From positions 3,956,217-4,020,216 of the forward strand of contig NZ_CP042582.1 of the NCBI RefSeq assembly GCF_008728835.1: a stretch of DNA of 64,000 nucleotides, given 5' to 3'. The translations under genes and the position numbers were made by a program. This DNA comes from Hypericibacter adhaerens (lineage in GTDB: Bacteria > Pseudomonadota > Alphaproteobacteria > Dongiales > Dongiaceae). Positions within the stretch are counted from its first letter, which is position 1. Each line of letters begins with the position of its first letter. A model generated the notes under the pieces. That model was not told the origin of the DNA. It made no database searches and worked only from the letters and a program-made list of their open reading frames with translations. Of this stretch, positions 19,834-40,226 are shown one piece after another.

Positions 19834-19922
19834 TGGTGCCCGCTGCCGGACTCGAACCGGCACAGCCCTCGCGGGCTTAGGGATTTTAAGTCCCTTGCGT
19901 CTACCAGTTTCGCCAAGCGGGC
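19834..19922 (-). tRNA. tRNA-Leu (anticodon TAA), CCA encoded
   Basis: Read on the minus strand, the acceptor GCCCGCT (5' end at 19922) pairs with AGCGGGC, followed by discriminator A and an encoded CCA at 19836-19834. The anticodon stem-loop is AGGGA-CTTAAAA-TCCCT, giving anticodon TAA. There is a class II long variable arm (GCCCGCGAGGGC), and the T-arm is GCCGG-TTCGAGT-CCGGC. An 86-base body plus CCA fits tRNA-Leu. Confidence 0.96.
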
Positions 19923-20010: not shown

Positions 20011-20445
20011 CTAGAGGGGCGAGGCGGCCTGCGCGCTCTGGCGGATCGCGGCGGCCCGGCCCGCCAGACCCCGCAGGCCTGCGGGATCGAGCGTCAGGCG
20101 CCAGGTCTCGATGCCGGCGAGGGCGCGGCGATCGAGCTCCCGCTCGAGATAGGGCTGCCAGGCCGGCGGCCCGGTCACGCCGCCCAGATCGATCCGCAGG
20201 AAGCGATAGCCATGCTTGAGATAGTCGGCGATCTGGTCGAGCGCGAAATCGATCGAGGCGCGGGCGCGGTCGACCGGCAGATCGTCGGGCGGCAGCTGGT
20301 GGAAGCCGAAGCCGGCCTGCTCGAGGATCGCGAGGGCCTGCTCCAGCGGCGCCCGCCGCCCATCGCCCTTCTCCAGCAGATGGGCGTTCACCAGGAGGTC
20401 GGGCAGGATCGCGATGCAGCGCGAGCGCGGATCATTGTTGCGCAT
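20011..20445 (-). CDS. Conserved hypothetical protein coupled to TudS-related gene
   Basis: A 144-residue soluble protein that I do not recognise. It starts MRNNDPRSRCIAILPDLLVNAHLLEKG, with VNAHL echoing the conserved SHCLxNQN start of the upstream protein. It continues QLPPDDLPVDRARASIDFALDQIADYLKHGYRFLRIDLGG, and its PPD recalls the CPE motif. It therefore looks like a shortened, Cys-poor relative of the gene before it. ATG 20445 lies inside the end of that gene (14-base overlap), so the two are probably translated together. Confidence 0.65.
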   Translation of the reverse strand: MRNNDPRSRCIAILPDLLVNAHLLEKGDGRRAPLEQALAILEQAGFGFHQLPPDDLPVDRARASIDFALDQIADYLKHGYRFLRIDLGGVTGPPAWQPYLERELDRRALAGIETWRLTLDPAGLRGLAGRAAAIRQSAQAASPL

Positions 20446-21016
20446 CGAGCCCCGCTCGGCCGGCGGCGAGGAAACCCCGGAACTCGGCCATCGCCTTCTC
20501 CATGGTGAAGCCCGGCAGCTCCATCGCCACGCCGAAGCCGCGCGGCACCGGAAGCCCGCGCTCGGCCAGCACCTGCTCCAGCTCCTCGATCCAGACGCCC
20601 TTGCCGGGCACCACTTCCCAGCTCATGTCCTCGGGCCGCCCGCCCCAGGCCGGCCCGATGCCGGTGAAGGTCACGGCGCTCGAGCCGCTGCCGTCGACCC
20701 CGACCAGCACCAGATCCTCGCAGCCCCTCGCCACCCGCGCCTCGAGCAGCTCGGCCACCGAAAAAGCGAGGTTCCGGCAATGGCGGCGGAAGCCCGGCGT
20801 GTCGTACTGCTCCTTCACCTGCCACCAGCGATTGACGCCGAGGAAGGCCATCTCCGGGCAAGGCATCTGCTGGATCGCATAGCCGAACTCCTTGAGGATG
20901 GCGACGACGGGGCTCACCACGCCCGGACAGAGCGCATATTCGTCGACCTTGGCGTTCTGGTTGGCGAGGCAGTGCGACAGCAGCGCCACGCGCGTTCGCG
21001 AACCCGTCTCCGGCAC
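20432..21016 (-). CDS. TudS-related putative desulfidase (DUF523-like, CD3072-type)
   Basis: A 194-residue protein related to TudS thiouracil desulfidases, which use a [4Fe-4S] cluster held by three Cys. Seen are VALLSHCLANQNAKVD (first Cys, about 16), IQQMPCPEMAFLGV (second Cys, about 53), and VGVDGSGSSAV, where the family usually has SPSCGV. The third ligand therefore appears as Ser. Other Cys (about 30, 80 and 99) exist. The start is GTG 21016 with GGAGG 5 bases upstream (21022-21026); other GTGs at 21022 and 21028 are possible. The downstream gene overlaps its end. Confidence 0.72.
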   Translation of the reverse strand: MPETGSRTRVALLSHCLANQNAKVDEYALCPGVVSPVVAILKEFGYAIQQMPCPEMAFLGVNRWWQVKEQYDTPGFRRHCRNLAFSVAELLEARVARGCEDLVLVGVDGSGSSAVTFTGIGPAWGGRPEDMSWEVVPGKGVWIEELEQVLAERGLPVPRGFGVAMELPGFTMEKAMAEFRGFLAAGRAGLDAQQ

Positions 21017-22589: not shown

Positions 22590-23354
22590 TCAGGCGATCT
22601 CGCCTTCGTAGGGATCGGCGCCGTGGTCGCGGATCAGGGCCCGCAGCCCCTCGGCCACCCGGTCGAGCTCGGCCTCGTCGGTGCCGCGCGCCACCAGGCT
22701 GGTGCCGAACTTGCCGCGCCGGAAGAACGGATAGCTGCCGATATCGACCGTGGGGTGGCGCGACTGCAGCGCCCCCAGCGCCTCGGCGATCGCACCCTCG
22801 CCCAGATAGGTGCTGACCGTGCGCGAGGCGACCGGGCGGCCGCCCTTGAGCCCGCCTTTGAGCCCGTCGAACATGGCCCGCATGATGGCCGGCACGCCCG
22901 CCAGCACATAGACATTGCCGATCTGGAAGCCGGGCGCCGTCGAGACCGGGTTCTCGATCAGCCGGCTGCCCTTGGGCACGGTCGCCATCCGCAGCCGCGC
23001 GGGATTGAGCTGGTCGCCCGTATAGTGGCGGCGCAGCAGCGCCACCGCCTCGGGGTCCAGGACCAGCTCGACGCCGAACGCCTTGGCGACGCAGCCCGAG
23101 GTGATGTCGTCATGGGTCGGGCCGATCCCGCCGGTGGTGAAGACATAGGTATAGCGGGCGCGGGCCGCGTTCACCGCCGCGACGATCTCGTCCTCGATGT
23201 CGGGCACGACGCGCGCCTCGCGCACGGGAATGCCGATCGCCGCCAGTTCCTTCGCCAGATAGGCCAGATTCACGTCCTGGGTACGGCCCGACAGGATCTC
23301 GTTGCCGATGATGAGAACGGCCGCGGTCGCGGCGGGGTCCGGGGGTTGGGGCAT
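22590..23354 (-). CDS. CinA-like competence/damage-inducible protein A (MoaB/MogA fold)
   Basis: A 254-residue protein with the molybdopterin-binding fold: AAVLIIGNEILSGRTQDVNLAYLAKEL, VFTTGGIGPTHDDITSGCVAKAFG and VYVLAGVPAIMRAMFDGL. It corresponds to the N-terminal COG1058 half of CinA, which in other bacteria has ADP-ribose or NMN-salvage related activity. The C-terminal nicotinamide deamidase domain is absent, as in many short alphaproteobacterial forms. It starts at ATG 23354, 45 bp after the lipoprotein gene on the same strand. Confidence 0.88.
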   Translation of the reverse strand: MPQPPDPAATAAVLIIGNEILSGRTQDVNLAYLAKELAAIGIPVREARVVPDIEDEIVAAVNAARARYTYVFTTGGIGPTHDDITSGCVAKAFGVELVLDPEAVALLRRHYTGDQLNPARLRMATVPKGSRLIENPVSTAPGFQIGNVYVLAGVPAIMRAMFDGLKGGLKGGRPVASRTVSTYLGEGAIAEALGALQSRHPTVDIGSYPFFRRGKFGTSLVARGTDEAELDRVAEGLRALIRDHGADPYEGEIA

Positions 23355-37143: not shown

Positions 37144-37384
37144 GCGGGCGCACCCGCACCCATCGCCGGTCGCAAAGCGAAGACTCAACGCACGGGATGA
37201 TTGTCGCGGCTCAACCAACCCGCCCCTCGGGAGCGGTGGTAATCGCTTACACTATCATTGAATCCAATGGCTTAGAGCGATAGTCTCGCCGCGCTCACCG
37301 ATACGGCTCGGGGGCGTGGCGAGTCGATCTGCCGGTGCTCGGGGCGAGAAACGGGCGGCCGACGGCTCGAGGGCGGGGGATTCG

Positions 37385-38797
37385 ATGGCCGATCAGGATC
37401 TGGCCTTCATCAGCGCGACCGAGGCGATCGCGAAATTTCGCGCCAAGACCCTGTCGCCGGTCGAGCTGCTGGATGCGGTGATCGCCCGCCACGATGCCGT
37501 CAATCGCAAGATCAACGCTTTCACCCACACCTCTTTCGACCGCGCGCGCGAGCAGGCGAAGAAGGCCGAAGCGCGCTACGCGACGGGCAAGCCGACCCGC
37601 GCCTTCGAAGGCGTTCCGCTCGTCATCAAGGACGAGTTCGCGATCAAGGGCCAGATCACGACCAACGGCTCGTTGCTGCTGAAGGACCATGTCGACACCG
37701 AGACCGAGTATTTCGTGGAGCGCATGCAGCGCGCGAACCCAGCCATCCTCGGCCGCAGCACCTGCCCCGAATTCTCTTCGGCCTGCGTGACGCATTCCCG
37801 GCTCTGGGGTGTCACCCGGAATCCCTGGAACCTGCGCTACAACGCCGGCGGCTCGACCGGCGGCGGCGCGGCCGCGGTCGCGGCCGGCATGACGGTCCTC
37901 TCGGACGGCAGCGACTATGCCGGCTCGATCCGCATCCCGGCCTCGGCCTGCGGCGTCTTCGGCTTCAAGCCGCCCTTCGGCCGTATCCCGACGGCGCCGC
38001 CCTGGCATCTCAATCCGTTCGCGGTGCACGGGCCGGTCACCCGCAGCGTCGCCGACGCGGCCCTGATGATGAACGTGATCGCGGGCTTCGATCCGCGCGA
38101 CCTGACCTCGGTCCGCGAGCGGCTTCGCTATCCCGCCCAATACAAGCCGATCAAGGGATGGCGGATCGCCTATTCGGCCGATCTCGGCTTCTTCCCGGTG
38201 GCGCCGGACGTCGCCAAGGCGACCCGCGACGCGCTCGAGGCCTTCCGCGAGGCCGGCGCCGAAATCGAAGAGGTCGATCTCGGCTGGACCGAGGACACGG
38301 TGCGCGGCTTCATCGCCCATGCGCGCGAGAACGAGCTCGTGCCCATCGCCAAGATGCCGCGCCAGGAACGGGCCCTCCTCTGCAGCTACAACAGCGGCCG
38401 CAAGGGCAAGTTCTATGCCGTCGGCACGAGCTACGCCCAGAGCCTGAAGATCCGGGCCGCCATGTATGAGAAGCTCGAGCCGATCCTCGAGCGTTGCCAG
38501 ATCCTGCTGTGCCCCGCGCTCGCCGTGCCCAGCGTGCCGGCCGAGCATGATCCGCTCGACGACAGCTTCACGATCAACGGCCGCAAGGTCGAGCCGCAGA
38601 TCGGCTGGTGCATGACCTTCCCCTTCAACATGCTGTGCCAGCTGCCGGTGGCGACCGTTCCCTGCGGCTTCGGCAAGTCGGGCGTGCCGGTGGGCCTGCA
38701 GATCGTCGGGCGCCCCTTCGACGATCTCGCCGTGTTCCAGGCGGCGGCGGCCTTCGAGCGGCTGCGCCCCTGGCGGCAGCATCGGCCGAAGATCTAG
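37385..38797 (+). CDS. Amidase (amidase signature family), copy 1
   Basis: A 470-residue hydrolase of amides. The Ser-cisSer-Lys triad is in VIKDEF (Lys), GSTGGGAAAVAAG (cis-Ser) and SDYAGSIRIPASACG (nucleophile Ser). The protein ends with QLPVATVPCGFGKSGVPVGLQIVG, a family C-terminal motif. GGGGGA precedes ATG 37385. The next gene is a close paralogue 13 bp downstream with the same start (MADQDLAFI) and end (RPWRxxRPK), a tandem duplication. A divergent-facing LysR gene follows. The natural substrate is unknown. Confidence 0.9.
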   Translation: MADQDLAFISATEAIAKFRAKTLSPVELLDAVIARHDAVNRKINAFTHTSFDRAREQAKKAEARYATGKPTRAFEGVPLVIKDEFAIKGQITTNGSLLLKDHVDTETEYFVERMQRANPAILGRSTCPEFSSACVTHSRLWGVTRNPWNLRYNAGGSTGGGAAAVAAGMTVLSDGSDYAGSIRIPASACGVFGFKPPFGRIPTAPPWHLNPFAVHGPVTRSVADAALMMNVIAGFDPRDLTSVRERLRYPAQYKPIKGWRIAYSADLGFFPVAPDVAKATRDALEAFREAGAEIEEVDLGWTEDTVRGFIAHARENELVPIAKMPRQERALLCSYNSGRKGKFYAVGTSYAQSLKIRAAMYEKLEPILERCQILLCPALAVPSVPAEHDPLDDSFTINGRKVEPQIGWCMTFPFNMLCQLPVATVPCGFGKSGVPVGLQIVGRPFDDLAVFQAAAAFERLRPWRQHRPKI

Positions 38798-38810
38798 GGA
38801 AATCCCGCGC

Positions 38811-40226
38811 ATGGCCGACCAGGATCTCGCTTTCATCACCGCGACCGAAGCGATCGCCGCCTTCAAGGCGCGCAAGCTTTCGCCGGTCGAGCTGCTCAAG
38901 GCCATGGAGGCGCAGTTCCACAAGGTGAACGGCAAGGTCAACGCCTTCACCTACACCTTCTTCGACCAGGCCCTGATCCAGGCGCGCAACGCCGAGAAAC
39001 GCTATGCCGCCGGGCGGCCGACCAAGCCGTTCGAAGGCGTGCCGCTCATGATCAAGGACATCCACCAGATCAAGGGCTATGTCACGACCTTCGGCTCGCT
39101 GCTCTACAAGCACAATGTCGACGAGGTCACCGAGCCTTTCGTCGAGCGCATGCTGGCGGCCAAGCCGGTCCTGATCGGACGCAGCACCAACCCCGAATTC
39201 GCGGCCTCCTGCATCACCCATTCGCGGCTCTGGGGCATCACCCGCAACCCGTGGAACACGCGCTACAACGCCGGCGGCTCGACCGGCGGCGGGGCCGCTG
39301 CGGTCGCGAGCGGCATGACCGTGCTCTCGGACGGCAGCGACTATGCGGGCTCGATCCGCGTGCCGGCCTCCTGCTGCGGCGTCTTCGGCTTCAAGCCGCC
39401 CACCGGCCGCGTGCCCCATTCCCAGCCCTGGAATCTCAACGGCTACGCGGTCTTCGGCCCGGTCACGCGCTCGGTCGCCGACGCGGCGCTGATGATGAAC
39501 GTGATCGCGGGCCAGGACCGGCGCGACATCACCTCGGTGAGGGAGAGGTTGCGCTATCCCGAGCGCTACGAACGGATCAAGGGCTGGCGCATCGCCTATT
39601 CGCCCGACCTCGGCTGCTTCGAGGTCGATCCCGAGGTGGCGAAGGCGACGCGCAAGGCACTCGACGTGTTTCGCGAGGCCGGCGCCGAGATCGAGGAGAT
39701 CGATCTGGGCTGGCCCAAGACCATCCTGCAGGCCTGGCTCGCCCATGCGCGCGAGAACGATTTCGAGCCGCCCTGGCTGCTGCCCCGGCACAAGCGGAAA
39801 CTGCTGACCGACTATATCCGCGCCTACACGCCGCGGAACGACGTCGCCAGGCGCTTCACCTATGCCGACAGCCTCAACATCCGCGTGGCGATGTGGGAGA
39901 AGCTGGCGCCGGTGCTGAAGCGCTGCCAGGTGCTGCTCTGCCCCACCCTCGCGATCCCGGCCCAGCCCGCCGCCTACAATCCCGCCGATCGCTCCCTCAA
40001 GATCAACGGCAAGAAGGTCGAATCCGAGATCGGCTGGGTCATGACCTTCCCCTTCAACATGCTGAGCCAGCTGCCGGCGGCGAGCGTGCCCTGCGGCTTC
40101 GCCAAATCGGGCGTACCGATCGGGCTGCAGATCGTGGGCCGGCCCTTCGACGACCTCACGGTGTTCCAGGCCGCCGCCGCCTTCGAGACGCTGCGGCCCT
40201 GGCGGAAATACCGGCCGAAGCTGTAG
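38811..40226 (+). CDS. Amidase (amidase signature family), copy 2
   Basis: A 471-residue paralogue of the preceding amidase, with the triad Lys in MIKDIHQIKG, cis-Ser in GSTGGGAAAVASG and Ser in SDYAGSIRVPASCCG. The two proteins align along their whole length but differ in the mid-region (PPWLLPRHKRKLLTDYIRAY here against PIAKMPRQERALLCSYNSGR), which lines the substrate pocket in this family. They may therefore have split specificities. The GGGAAATCCC spacing to copy 1 is short, so one transcript is expected. Confidence 0.9.
   Translation: MADQDLAFITATEAIAAFKARKLSPVELLKAMEAQFHKVNGKVNAFTYTFFDQALIQARNAEKRYAAGRPTKPFEGVPLMIKDIHQIKGYVTTFGSLLYKHNVDEVTEPFVERMLAAKPVLIGRSTNPEFAASCITHSRLWGITRNPWNTRYNAGGSTGGGAAAVASGMTVLSDGSDYAGSIRVPASCCGVFGFKPPTGRVPHSQPWNLNGYAVFGPVTRSVADAALMMNVIAGQDRRDITSVRERLRYPERYERIKGWRIAYSPDLGCFEVDPEVAKATRKALDVFREAGAEIEEIDLGWPKTILQAWLAHARENDFEPPWLLPRHKRKLLTDYIRAYTPRNDVARRFTYADSLNIRVAMWEKLAPVLKRCQVLLCPTLAIPAQPAAYNPADRSLKINGKKVESEIGWVMTFPFNMLSQLPAASVPCGFAKSGVPIGLQIVGRPFDDLTVFQAAAAFETLRPWRKYRPKL

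Follow-up and report, generated by a model that had tools for sequence, protein, structure and literature searches.

A conserved two-gene variant of the TudS/CD3072 superfamily with serine at the position of the third cluster cysteine

The mechanism of TudS has at its core a three-cysteine, site-differentiated [4Fe-4S] cluster. In the accessible text of the TudS study its ligands are Cys10, Cys43 and Cys104, the sulfur of the substrate binds the free iron of the cluster, and Glu45, Ser101 and Ser103 are the proposed catalytic residues (PMC10611767). What, then, becomes of a TudS-related protein in which the third of these cysteines has given way to serine, and whose gene runs into that of a cysteine-poor partner? 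Such a pair, here called A and B, lies in the window (the whole stretch of 64,000 nucleotides that was analysed), taken from a host genome of 5.87 Mb in a single contig.

Both frames were located on the minus strand, where the first-pass annotation had placed them with an overlap of 14 bases (Table 1); it had also described them as fused by this overlap, and here the wording fails, as the two genes overlap yet are separate. A GGAGG stands 5 bases upstream of the GTG of gene A. An MFS transporter gene as well as the tRNA gene lies past the end of gene B, and a chloride channel gene on the plus strand lies on the other side of gene A. In the one other genome of the genus that was searched (L002) the pair is present, with A at 1498-2082, B at 1077-1511, an overlap identical to that of the window and an A protein 87% identical. 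Elsewhere in the window a protein with MoCF_biosynth and FLAD1_M domains, which we take to be CinA-like, is encoded near the chloride channel (22593-23354, minus strand), and tandem amidase paralogues (PF01425) of 493 and 471 aa are found at 37316-40226 on the plus strand.

Table 1. Features of the A-B gene pair and its surroundings, in window coordinates
Feature	Position	Strand	Remarks
Gene A, CD3072-type TudS-related protein	20432..21016	-	GTG start, 194 aa; NF045597 match
Gene B, diverged, cysteine-poor A paralogue without active-site loops	20011..20445	-	ATG start, 144 aa
Overlap of A 3' end and B 5' end	20432..20445	-	14 bases, from gene coordinates; same in L002
Cys16 codon	20969..20971	-	= TudS Cys10, ligand 1; Cys in 53/53 rows
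Glu26 codon	20939..20941	-	position changing with the Ser/Met clade
Cys30 codon	20927..20929	-	extra Cys of bacterial Ser/Met members
Cys53-Pro54-Glu55 codons	20852..20860	-	= TudS Cys43, Glu45; Cys53 and Glu55 in 53/53 rows
Cys80 codon	20777..20779	-	old family Cys; no TudS ligand counterpart
Ser110-Gly-Ser112-Ser113 codons	20678..20689	-	Ser113 at third-ligand (Cys104) position
tRNA-Leu	19834-19922	-	past end of gene B

Protein A is a TudS homologue of the CD3072 type. It matches NF045597 (CD3072 family TudS-related putative desulfidase) with 114.9 bits and an E-value of 2.5e-33, below the cut-off of 130; eight other A-type proteins fall on both sides of this mark, five above it (L079 189.0, L008 166.7, L080 162.4, L068 138.3, L006 130.7) and three below (L010 124.7, L014 108.5, L074 96.8), and L068 is a Ser-type orthologue yet exceeds it. 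The PF04463 (TudS) profile gave no match for A in a Pfam search up to E 1, and a sequence search of solved structures returned nothing meaningful for A or for B. Comparison of A with a profile of six TudS/DUF523 sequences gave an alignment (hhalign 91%, E 1.1e-6) with the cluster ligands in register, such that Cys16, Cys53, Glu55, Ser110, Ser112 and Ser113 of A correspond to Cys10, Cys43, Glu45, Ser101, Ser103 and Cys104 of TudS. The counterparts of the three catalytic residues are thus all kept (Glu55, Ser110, Ser112), and A reads SGSSA (...VDGSGSSAV...) where the family has SPSCG. The alignment with TudS and CD3072-type proteins that the first-pass annotation proposed as a check therefore bears out its claim of a serine at the third cluster-cysteine position, since Ser113 falls on Cys104.

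The fold is consistent with this assignment. We used the AlphaFold model of an orthologue from Tropicimonas (L004, 62% identical to A) as a stand-in for the window protein, and in VIA-align TudS entries took places 1-4 (Z 8.5-8.7, 140-143 residues aligned, rmsd 3.7-4.0), with the next row at Z 7.3; residues 3-180 against 6z92 gave Z 8.7 and rmsd 3.7 over 141 aligned residues. The L004 protein is an A-B fusion, modelled at pLDDT 76 and pTM 0.61 from an input alignment that held no B homologues. Foldseek returned no match at E <=0.001 for either the fusion model or B, and TudS was absent among the best 50 rows.

The partner is a diverged copy of A. Its profile aligns with that of A over A residues 3-156 (hhalign 97.8%, E 7.6e-13), and a narrower A profile gives E 2e-11. 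The same comparison of B with the TudS profile found nothing, so that the match between B and A is discriminating, and the two results together exclude chance as the cause of the likeness. Archaeal A proteins that lack a B also match the B profile, mostly in their N-terminal part, which speaks for the kinship again. The motif pairings that had first suggested a relationship, VNAHL with SHCLxNQN and PPDDLP with PCPE, are identical to those in the profile alignment. The largest gaps of B against A coincide with the two active-site stretches of A, which follow the CPE motif and SPSxG, respectively. B thus retains the alpha/beta core, whereas its pocket and its cluster cysteines are gone. Of the earlier term 'diverged half-copy', the divergence from A stands and the 'half' is inexact, as B spans A 3-156 minus two loops; the sequence profiles and the conservation of B decide against the refuting case named at the outset, a partner of another fold that is not kept elsewhere. 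The structure model of B is likewise alpha/beta (pLDDT 90.3, pTM 0.84, from an input alignment that included A rows), and VIA-align placed a double-cubane protein first, with TudS unlisted, at a Z of 8.2 that is common for models without a clear match. Having no Pfam or NCBIfam match above cut-off, B looks like an undescribed family.

To place the pair in a wider sample, relatives of A were drawn from genome contigs (7 loci), plasmid records (13, of which six were taken: H1-H3, H5, H6 and H8) and whole genomes; L078 (H5) was not carried into later analyses. A was found in 4/385 genomes of the class draw, the window's own included, in 1/398 of the phylum draw (the window's own) and in 1/295 of the family of Rhodobacter (the Rhodobacter genome itself), compared to 11/29 genomes of one archaeal phylum and 40/200 of another, where 42 places were reported and 30 with loci were used; these counts are biased by a search profile weighted to Ser-type members. 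A is thus rare in the phylum of the window and commoner in archaea. The B profile had a single match among 289 genomes of the class, again the window's own.

The tree comprises 55 A proteins, two with an incomplete N terminus (L037 and L056) having been omitted and a frameshifted A (L011) left out of the tables. All 11 rows with Ser or Met at position 113 fall in one clade (support 100/96, starred by the tool), which holds the window protein and its congener L002, Rhodobacter L003, Tropicimonas L004, Zavarzinia L005, Neorhizobium L010 and L012, and L014 from genome G351, together with archaeal L038, L040 and L041. In the 53-row alignment the residue is Ser in 10 and Met in one (L014) of these 11 and Cys in 42/42 elsewhere, so that what had been noted for a single protein is a clade-wide substitution. 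Within the clade Cys16, Cys53, Glu55 and Ser110 are kept in 11/11 rows and Ser112 in 10/11 (Thr in L014), and the first four are invariant across the whole alignment.

The sister of the Ser/Met clade is archaeal L044, a Cys-type protein with B (99/92, also starred), and a larger clade of 18 rows, bacterial and archaeal, unites both with six further Cys-type, B-bearing rows; its support, 94/83, is just below the tool's mark. B adjoins A or is fused to it in all 18 of these rows (12 apart, 6 fused). None of the 37 rows outside the clade has B beside A, as judged by profile for 35 and by annotation for L079 and L080, with flanks of mostly ~1.4 kb; of 34 genomes that supplied outside rows, 18 gave a match to the B profile, which was A itself in 17 of them and an orphan B in the remaining one. 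Ser/Met rows therefore occur solely where B is present (11/11), and the nesting of their clade inside the B-bearing clade shows that B was gained first and the third cysteine lost later. A tree test of the link between Ser/Met and B has one independent pair to draw on, as each change maps to one or nearly one event.

The search for the same gene pair elsewhere, also proposed at the outset, found it in bacteria and archaea and in places as a single polypeptide. The Tropicimonas fusion is 286 aa long, and the archaeal fusions (L049, L050, L052, L053 and L056, with L048 cut by a contig end) belong to a separate branch; in Neorhizobium L012 the two genes overlap by four bases. The presence of separate fusion genes in a Tropicimonas and among archaea suggests that the two proteins function as a unit, and given that the pair recurs elsewhere, sometimes as one polypeptide, the sequences make an A-B heteromer likely. 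Between the window and L002 the NG86 dN/dS values are 0.088/0.495 for A and 0.252/0.581 for B, i.e. both genes are constrained, B less than A.

Two irregular loci were also encountered. An orphan B lies at 1447-1785 of L089 (archaeal genome G698), where A is seemingly reduced to its last residues and where, by eye, nucleotidyltransferase/HEPN-like frames precede B. On the plasmid pNgVX of Neorhizobium galegae VafX2 (L011, 7983-8557) a frameshift splits A into two frames; the gene is intact in L010 and L012.

For a possible substrate we turned to the neighbouring genes, of which family searches covered some per locus. Five bacterial contexts lie outside the genus of the window (L003, L004, L005, L010 and L072). 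In three of these (Rhodobacter L003, Tropicimonas L004, Neorhizobium L010) a gene close to A encodes a carbamoylase that scores above the TIGR01879 cut-off, and in Neorhizobium galegae the pair sits within a catabolic gene cluster. In L072 A is preceded by a Hydantoinase_B gene and by a gene for a protein akin to caprolactamase and acetophenone-carboxylase subunits that stays below their cut-offs. Further neighbours are nucleoside-hydrolase-like proteins (L004, L010), an aminotransferase (L003, L010) and a DUF1028 protein (L004). In Zavarzinia L005 no carbamoylase or hydantoinase was found among the three neighbours searched, the neighbours being FAD oxidoreductases and an NMT1-type binding protein. 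Among archaea, the Ser-type pair of L070 is surrounded by a Bmp-type transporter, a molybdenum hydroxylase, AllG, AllH, a cyclase and a CoA-ligase-domain protein which from its sequence we read as FdrA; the stretches fetched for L069 and L068 hold molybdenum hydroxylase subunits and an ECF transporter component barely above cut-off, respectively, and Pfam identifies Bmp, cyclase and CoxG genes close to the L074 pair, which is fused and of the Cys type. In the window itself no catabolic cluster adjoins the pair, its neighbours being the chloride channel, tRNA-Leu and MFS transporter genes; an N-formylglutamate amidohydrolase and an M20 peptidase are encoded at least 10 kb away. Taken together, the neighbours in the other genomes suggest that N-heterocycles or ureides are imported and degraded, and sulfur removal by the pair would follow by analogy, from kinship alone.

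Ergothioneine breakdown runs via a thiohydantoin and was suspected for this reason. The neighbouring amidases match the ErtE model, at 303-309 bits under its cut-off of 520, and literature listings are silent on the gene; we keep this pathway as no more than a lead.

Several further arrangements were observed. In three archaeal loci (L074, L075 and L076) the fusion gene stands between a Bmp-type transporter operon and a cyclase/CoxG/molybdenum hydroxylase operon, as checked by Pfam for L074 and read by eye for the other two. Ordinary CD3072 genes lie beside a CD3073 ECF component on plasmid p4 of Cetobacterium somerae (L079, 4429-5510) and on plasmid pCR1A of Enterococcus gilvus (L080, 4989-6031), in the latter immediately after selA, with selB and yedF lying farther upstream; the selenium genes of E. 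gilvus hint at a thio- or selenium-containing, vitamin-like substrate for ordinary CD3072. Two CD3072-like genes with SPTCG (L015 and L016, genomes G088 and G298) lie directly behind frames with a HHKLPIHGGGKNEFSNF stretch, presumably HNH-like.

There is good support for regarding the pair as a conserved variant of the TudS/CD3072 superfamily that is made up of two genes. As to what it does, the explanation we prefer, and hold with moderate confidence, is that A and B form a heteromeric Fe-S enzyme of this superfamily, whose reaction is probably the removal of sulfur, or of a similar group, from an N-heterocycle or a ureide. Protein A would retain the catalytic pocket (Cys16, Cys53, Glu55, Ser110, Ser112) and most likely still carry an Fe-S cluster, held by two cysteines together with Ser113 as an oxygen ligand, with solvent or, in bacterial members, with Cys30. 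B, itself derived from A with loss of the active site, would bind to A and have a structural role or shape the substrate site; it may also cover the altered site or supply what that site is missing. In several lineages the N-heterocycle or ureide on which the pair has probably acted would be degraded by enzymes encoded nearby.

Precedent from the RudS enzymes cuts both ways. In the available part of the RudS study RudS_TT is still active after the C47A mutation, and the authors attribute this to a cluster with two cysteines (PMC11417400), so loss of one cysteine need not kill the cluster. However, according to the same part of that study most single Cys mutants of RudS are inactive and C47A is the sole exception (PMC11417400), and a two-cysteine cluster may therefore fail.

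The alternative that survives best concerns the role of B, which might merely help an otherwise ordinary CD3072-type desulfidase to fold or to stay stable, or might regulate it, with no part in the altered site. B also accompanies members that have the third cysteine (L006, L044 and the archaeal fusions), evolves faster than A and lacks the cluster cysteines, all of which would fit such a role, and we regard it as a serious contender, if somewhat on the improbable side. It sits less well with the confinement of Ser/Met rows to B-bearing loci and with the retention of B in both bacteria and archaea. On the B side there is one candidate residue for a contribution to the site, Asp16 of B, which occurs in 11/11 Ser/Met rows and in L044 and in 0/7 other B sequences.

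A second alternative keeps the three-cysteine cluster and moves one of its ligands, with Cys30 as the new third one. This cysteine is present in 8/8 bacterial Ser/Met rows, the window's among them, and outside the B-bearing clade in 1/35 rows (L055). It sits in the loop that follows ligand Cys16, directly ahead of a helix. Residues 16-24 of the L004 model, within the Cys16-Cys30 loop, have pLDDT < 50, and on this modelling the loop may be mobile. The loop corresponds to that of Arg17 and Tyr18 in TudS, residues which contact the substrate in the docking models given in the accessible text of that study (PMC10611767). In the three archaeal Ser rows, however, position 30 is Tyr, so that Cys30 is no general substitute, though possibly of use in the window protein, and no other new cysteine occurs throughout the clade; we consider a moved ligand rather unlikely. 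The question of whether another cysteine could serve as ligand, raised with the first description of the pair, thus has a divided answer: the bacterial members carry a candidate in the extra Cys30, which the three archaeal Ser members lack.

A survey of the 11 rows found no replacement cysteine universal to the Ser/Met clade. Cys80 was ruled out as a compensating ligand, being an old family residue present in most Cys-type members (11/11 Ser/Met rows, 6/7 Cys-type rows with B, 27/35 others). Cys99, the only other cysteine enriched in the clade, should by the order of secondary-structure elements be placed on the strand leading into the SPSxG loop, at the end remote from that loop; it was ruled out as a universal substitute because it is found in 8/11 rows and missing in L010, L012 and L014. 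Position 26 changes with the clade, being Glu in 9, Asp in one and Gln in one of the 11 rows and Gly in 7/7 Cys-type rows with B and 28/35 others, which makes Glu26, by its sequence distribution, a second candidate for replacing the lost ligand.

The third alternative is that the cluster has gone altogether, leaving A to act in heterocycle breakdown as a cluster-free hydrolase, a binding protein or a mononuclear metal enzyme; B would be its second lobe. The third ligand is replaced throughout a clade, once by Met, and ring-opening hydrolases are among the neighbours in other genomes, both as this reading would have it; however, Cys16, Cys53 and Glu55 are invariant in 53/53 rows where drift would be expected without a cluster, and we judge it decidedly unlikely. 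That the window pair is a decaying pseudogene remnant is very improbable indeed, for in spite of the archaeal orphan B and the frameshift-split Neorhizobium A, A and B have complete reading frames both here and in L002, and dN/dS is < 1 for both genes.

Going beyond the preferred heteromeric Fe-S enzyme, one can sketch a fuller history, which we offer tentatively and think doubtful as a whole: a dead copy of the protein itself would have been recruited as a subunit, after which one cysteine of the [4Fe-4S] cluster was replaced by Ser or by a partner residue (e.g. Asp16 of B), giving a new reaction on rings of the thio-ureide or thiohydantoin type, as a feed into hydantoin- and allantoin-like breakdown in bacteria and archaea. 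The earlier reading of the pair as a changed desulfidase-like system is supported in part, namely in an altered ligand position, a partner that is a diverged copy and a pair found elsewhere, with cluster, complex and sulfur removal as putative features; it has lost the terms 'fused' and 'half-copy'. If the Fe-S enzyme explanation is true, a natural, clade-wide change from Cys to Ser, in a pocket left intact for the rest and in a line that retains a paralogue without catalytic residues, would show how such clusters can be re-ligated in nature, and TudS-like chemistry would be tied to the breakdown of heterocycles and ureides, with B a seemingly undescribed family that has a testable role. No title or abstract on the A-B pair or on CD3072 was found in the open-access literature, a scope outside which most subscription journals lie.

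Several known systems resemble the pair. One is the double-cubane cluster protein 7yyl, with a weak fold likeness to the L004 model of A (Z 7.3, 111 residues aligned) and one to B over 121 aligned residues, at the Z level common among models without a clear match; 7yyl is the larger protein. We presume it to be kin of the 2-hydroxyacyl-CoA dehydratase-like proteins. Enzymes of the latter kind pair homologous subunits. The CD3072 family (NF045597) is by profile the same sequence family as A, which differs in lying below the 130-bit cut-off and in the replaced third cysteine; CD3072 stands beside the CD3073 ECF component in two records (L079, L080), whereas the window pair has no CD3073 neighbour. 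RudS, the TudS-DUF1722 tRNA desulfidase, likewise joins a TudS-type domain to a second domain, which is DUF1722, in contrast to B with no Pfam match above cut-off, and the RudS enzymes in Table 1 of the RudS study, as far as that table is available, are shown with all three cysteines. TudS itself (DUF523, PF04463; PDB 6z92, 6z93, 6z94, 6z96, 6zw9) is like A in fold, as judged from the L004 orthologue, in two of the three cysteines, in the glutamate and in both serines; A has Ser in place of the third Cys and no PF04463 match, and whereas TudS is described as a monomer in the accessible text of its study (PMC10611767), A is accompanied by a paralogous partner.
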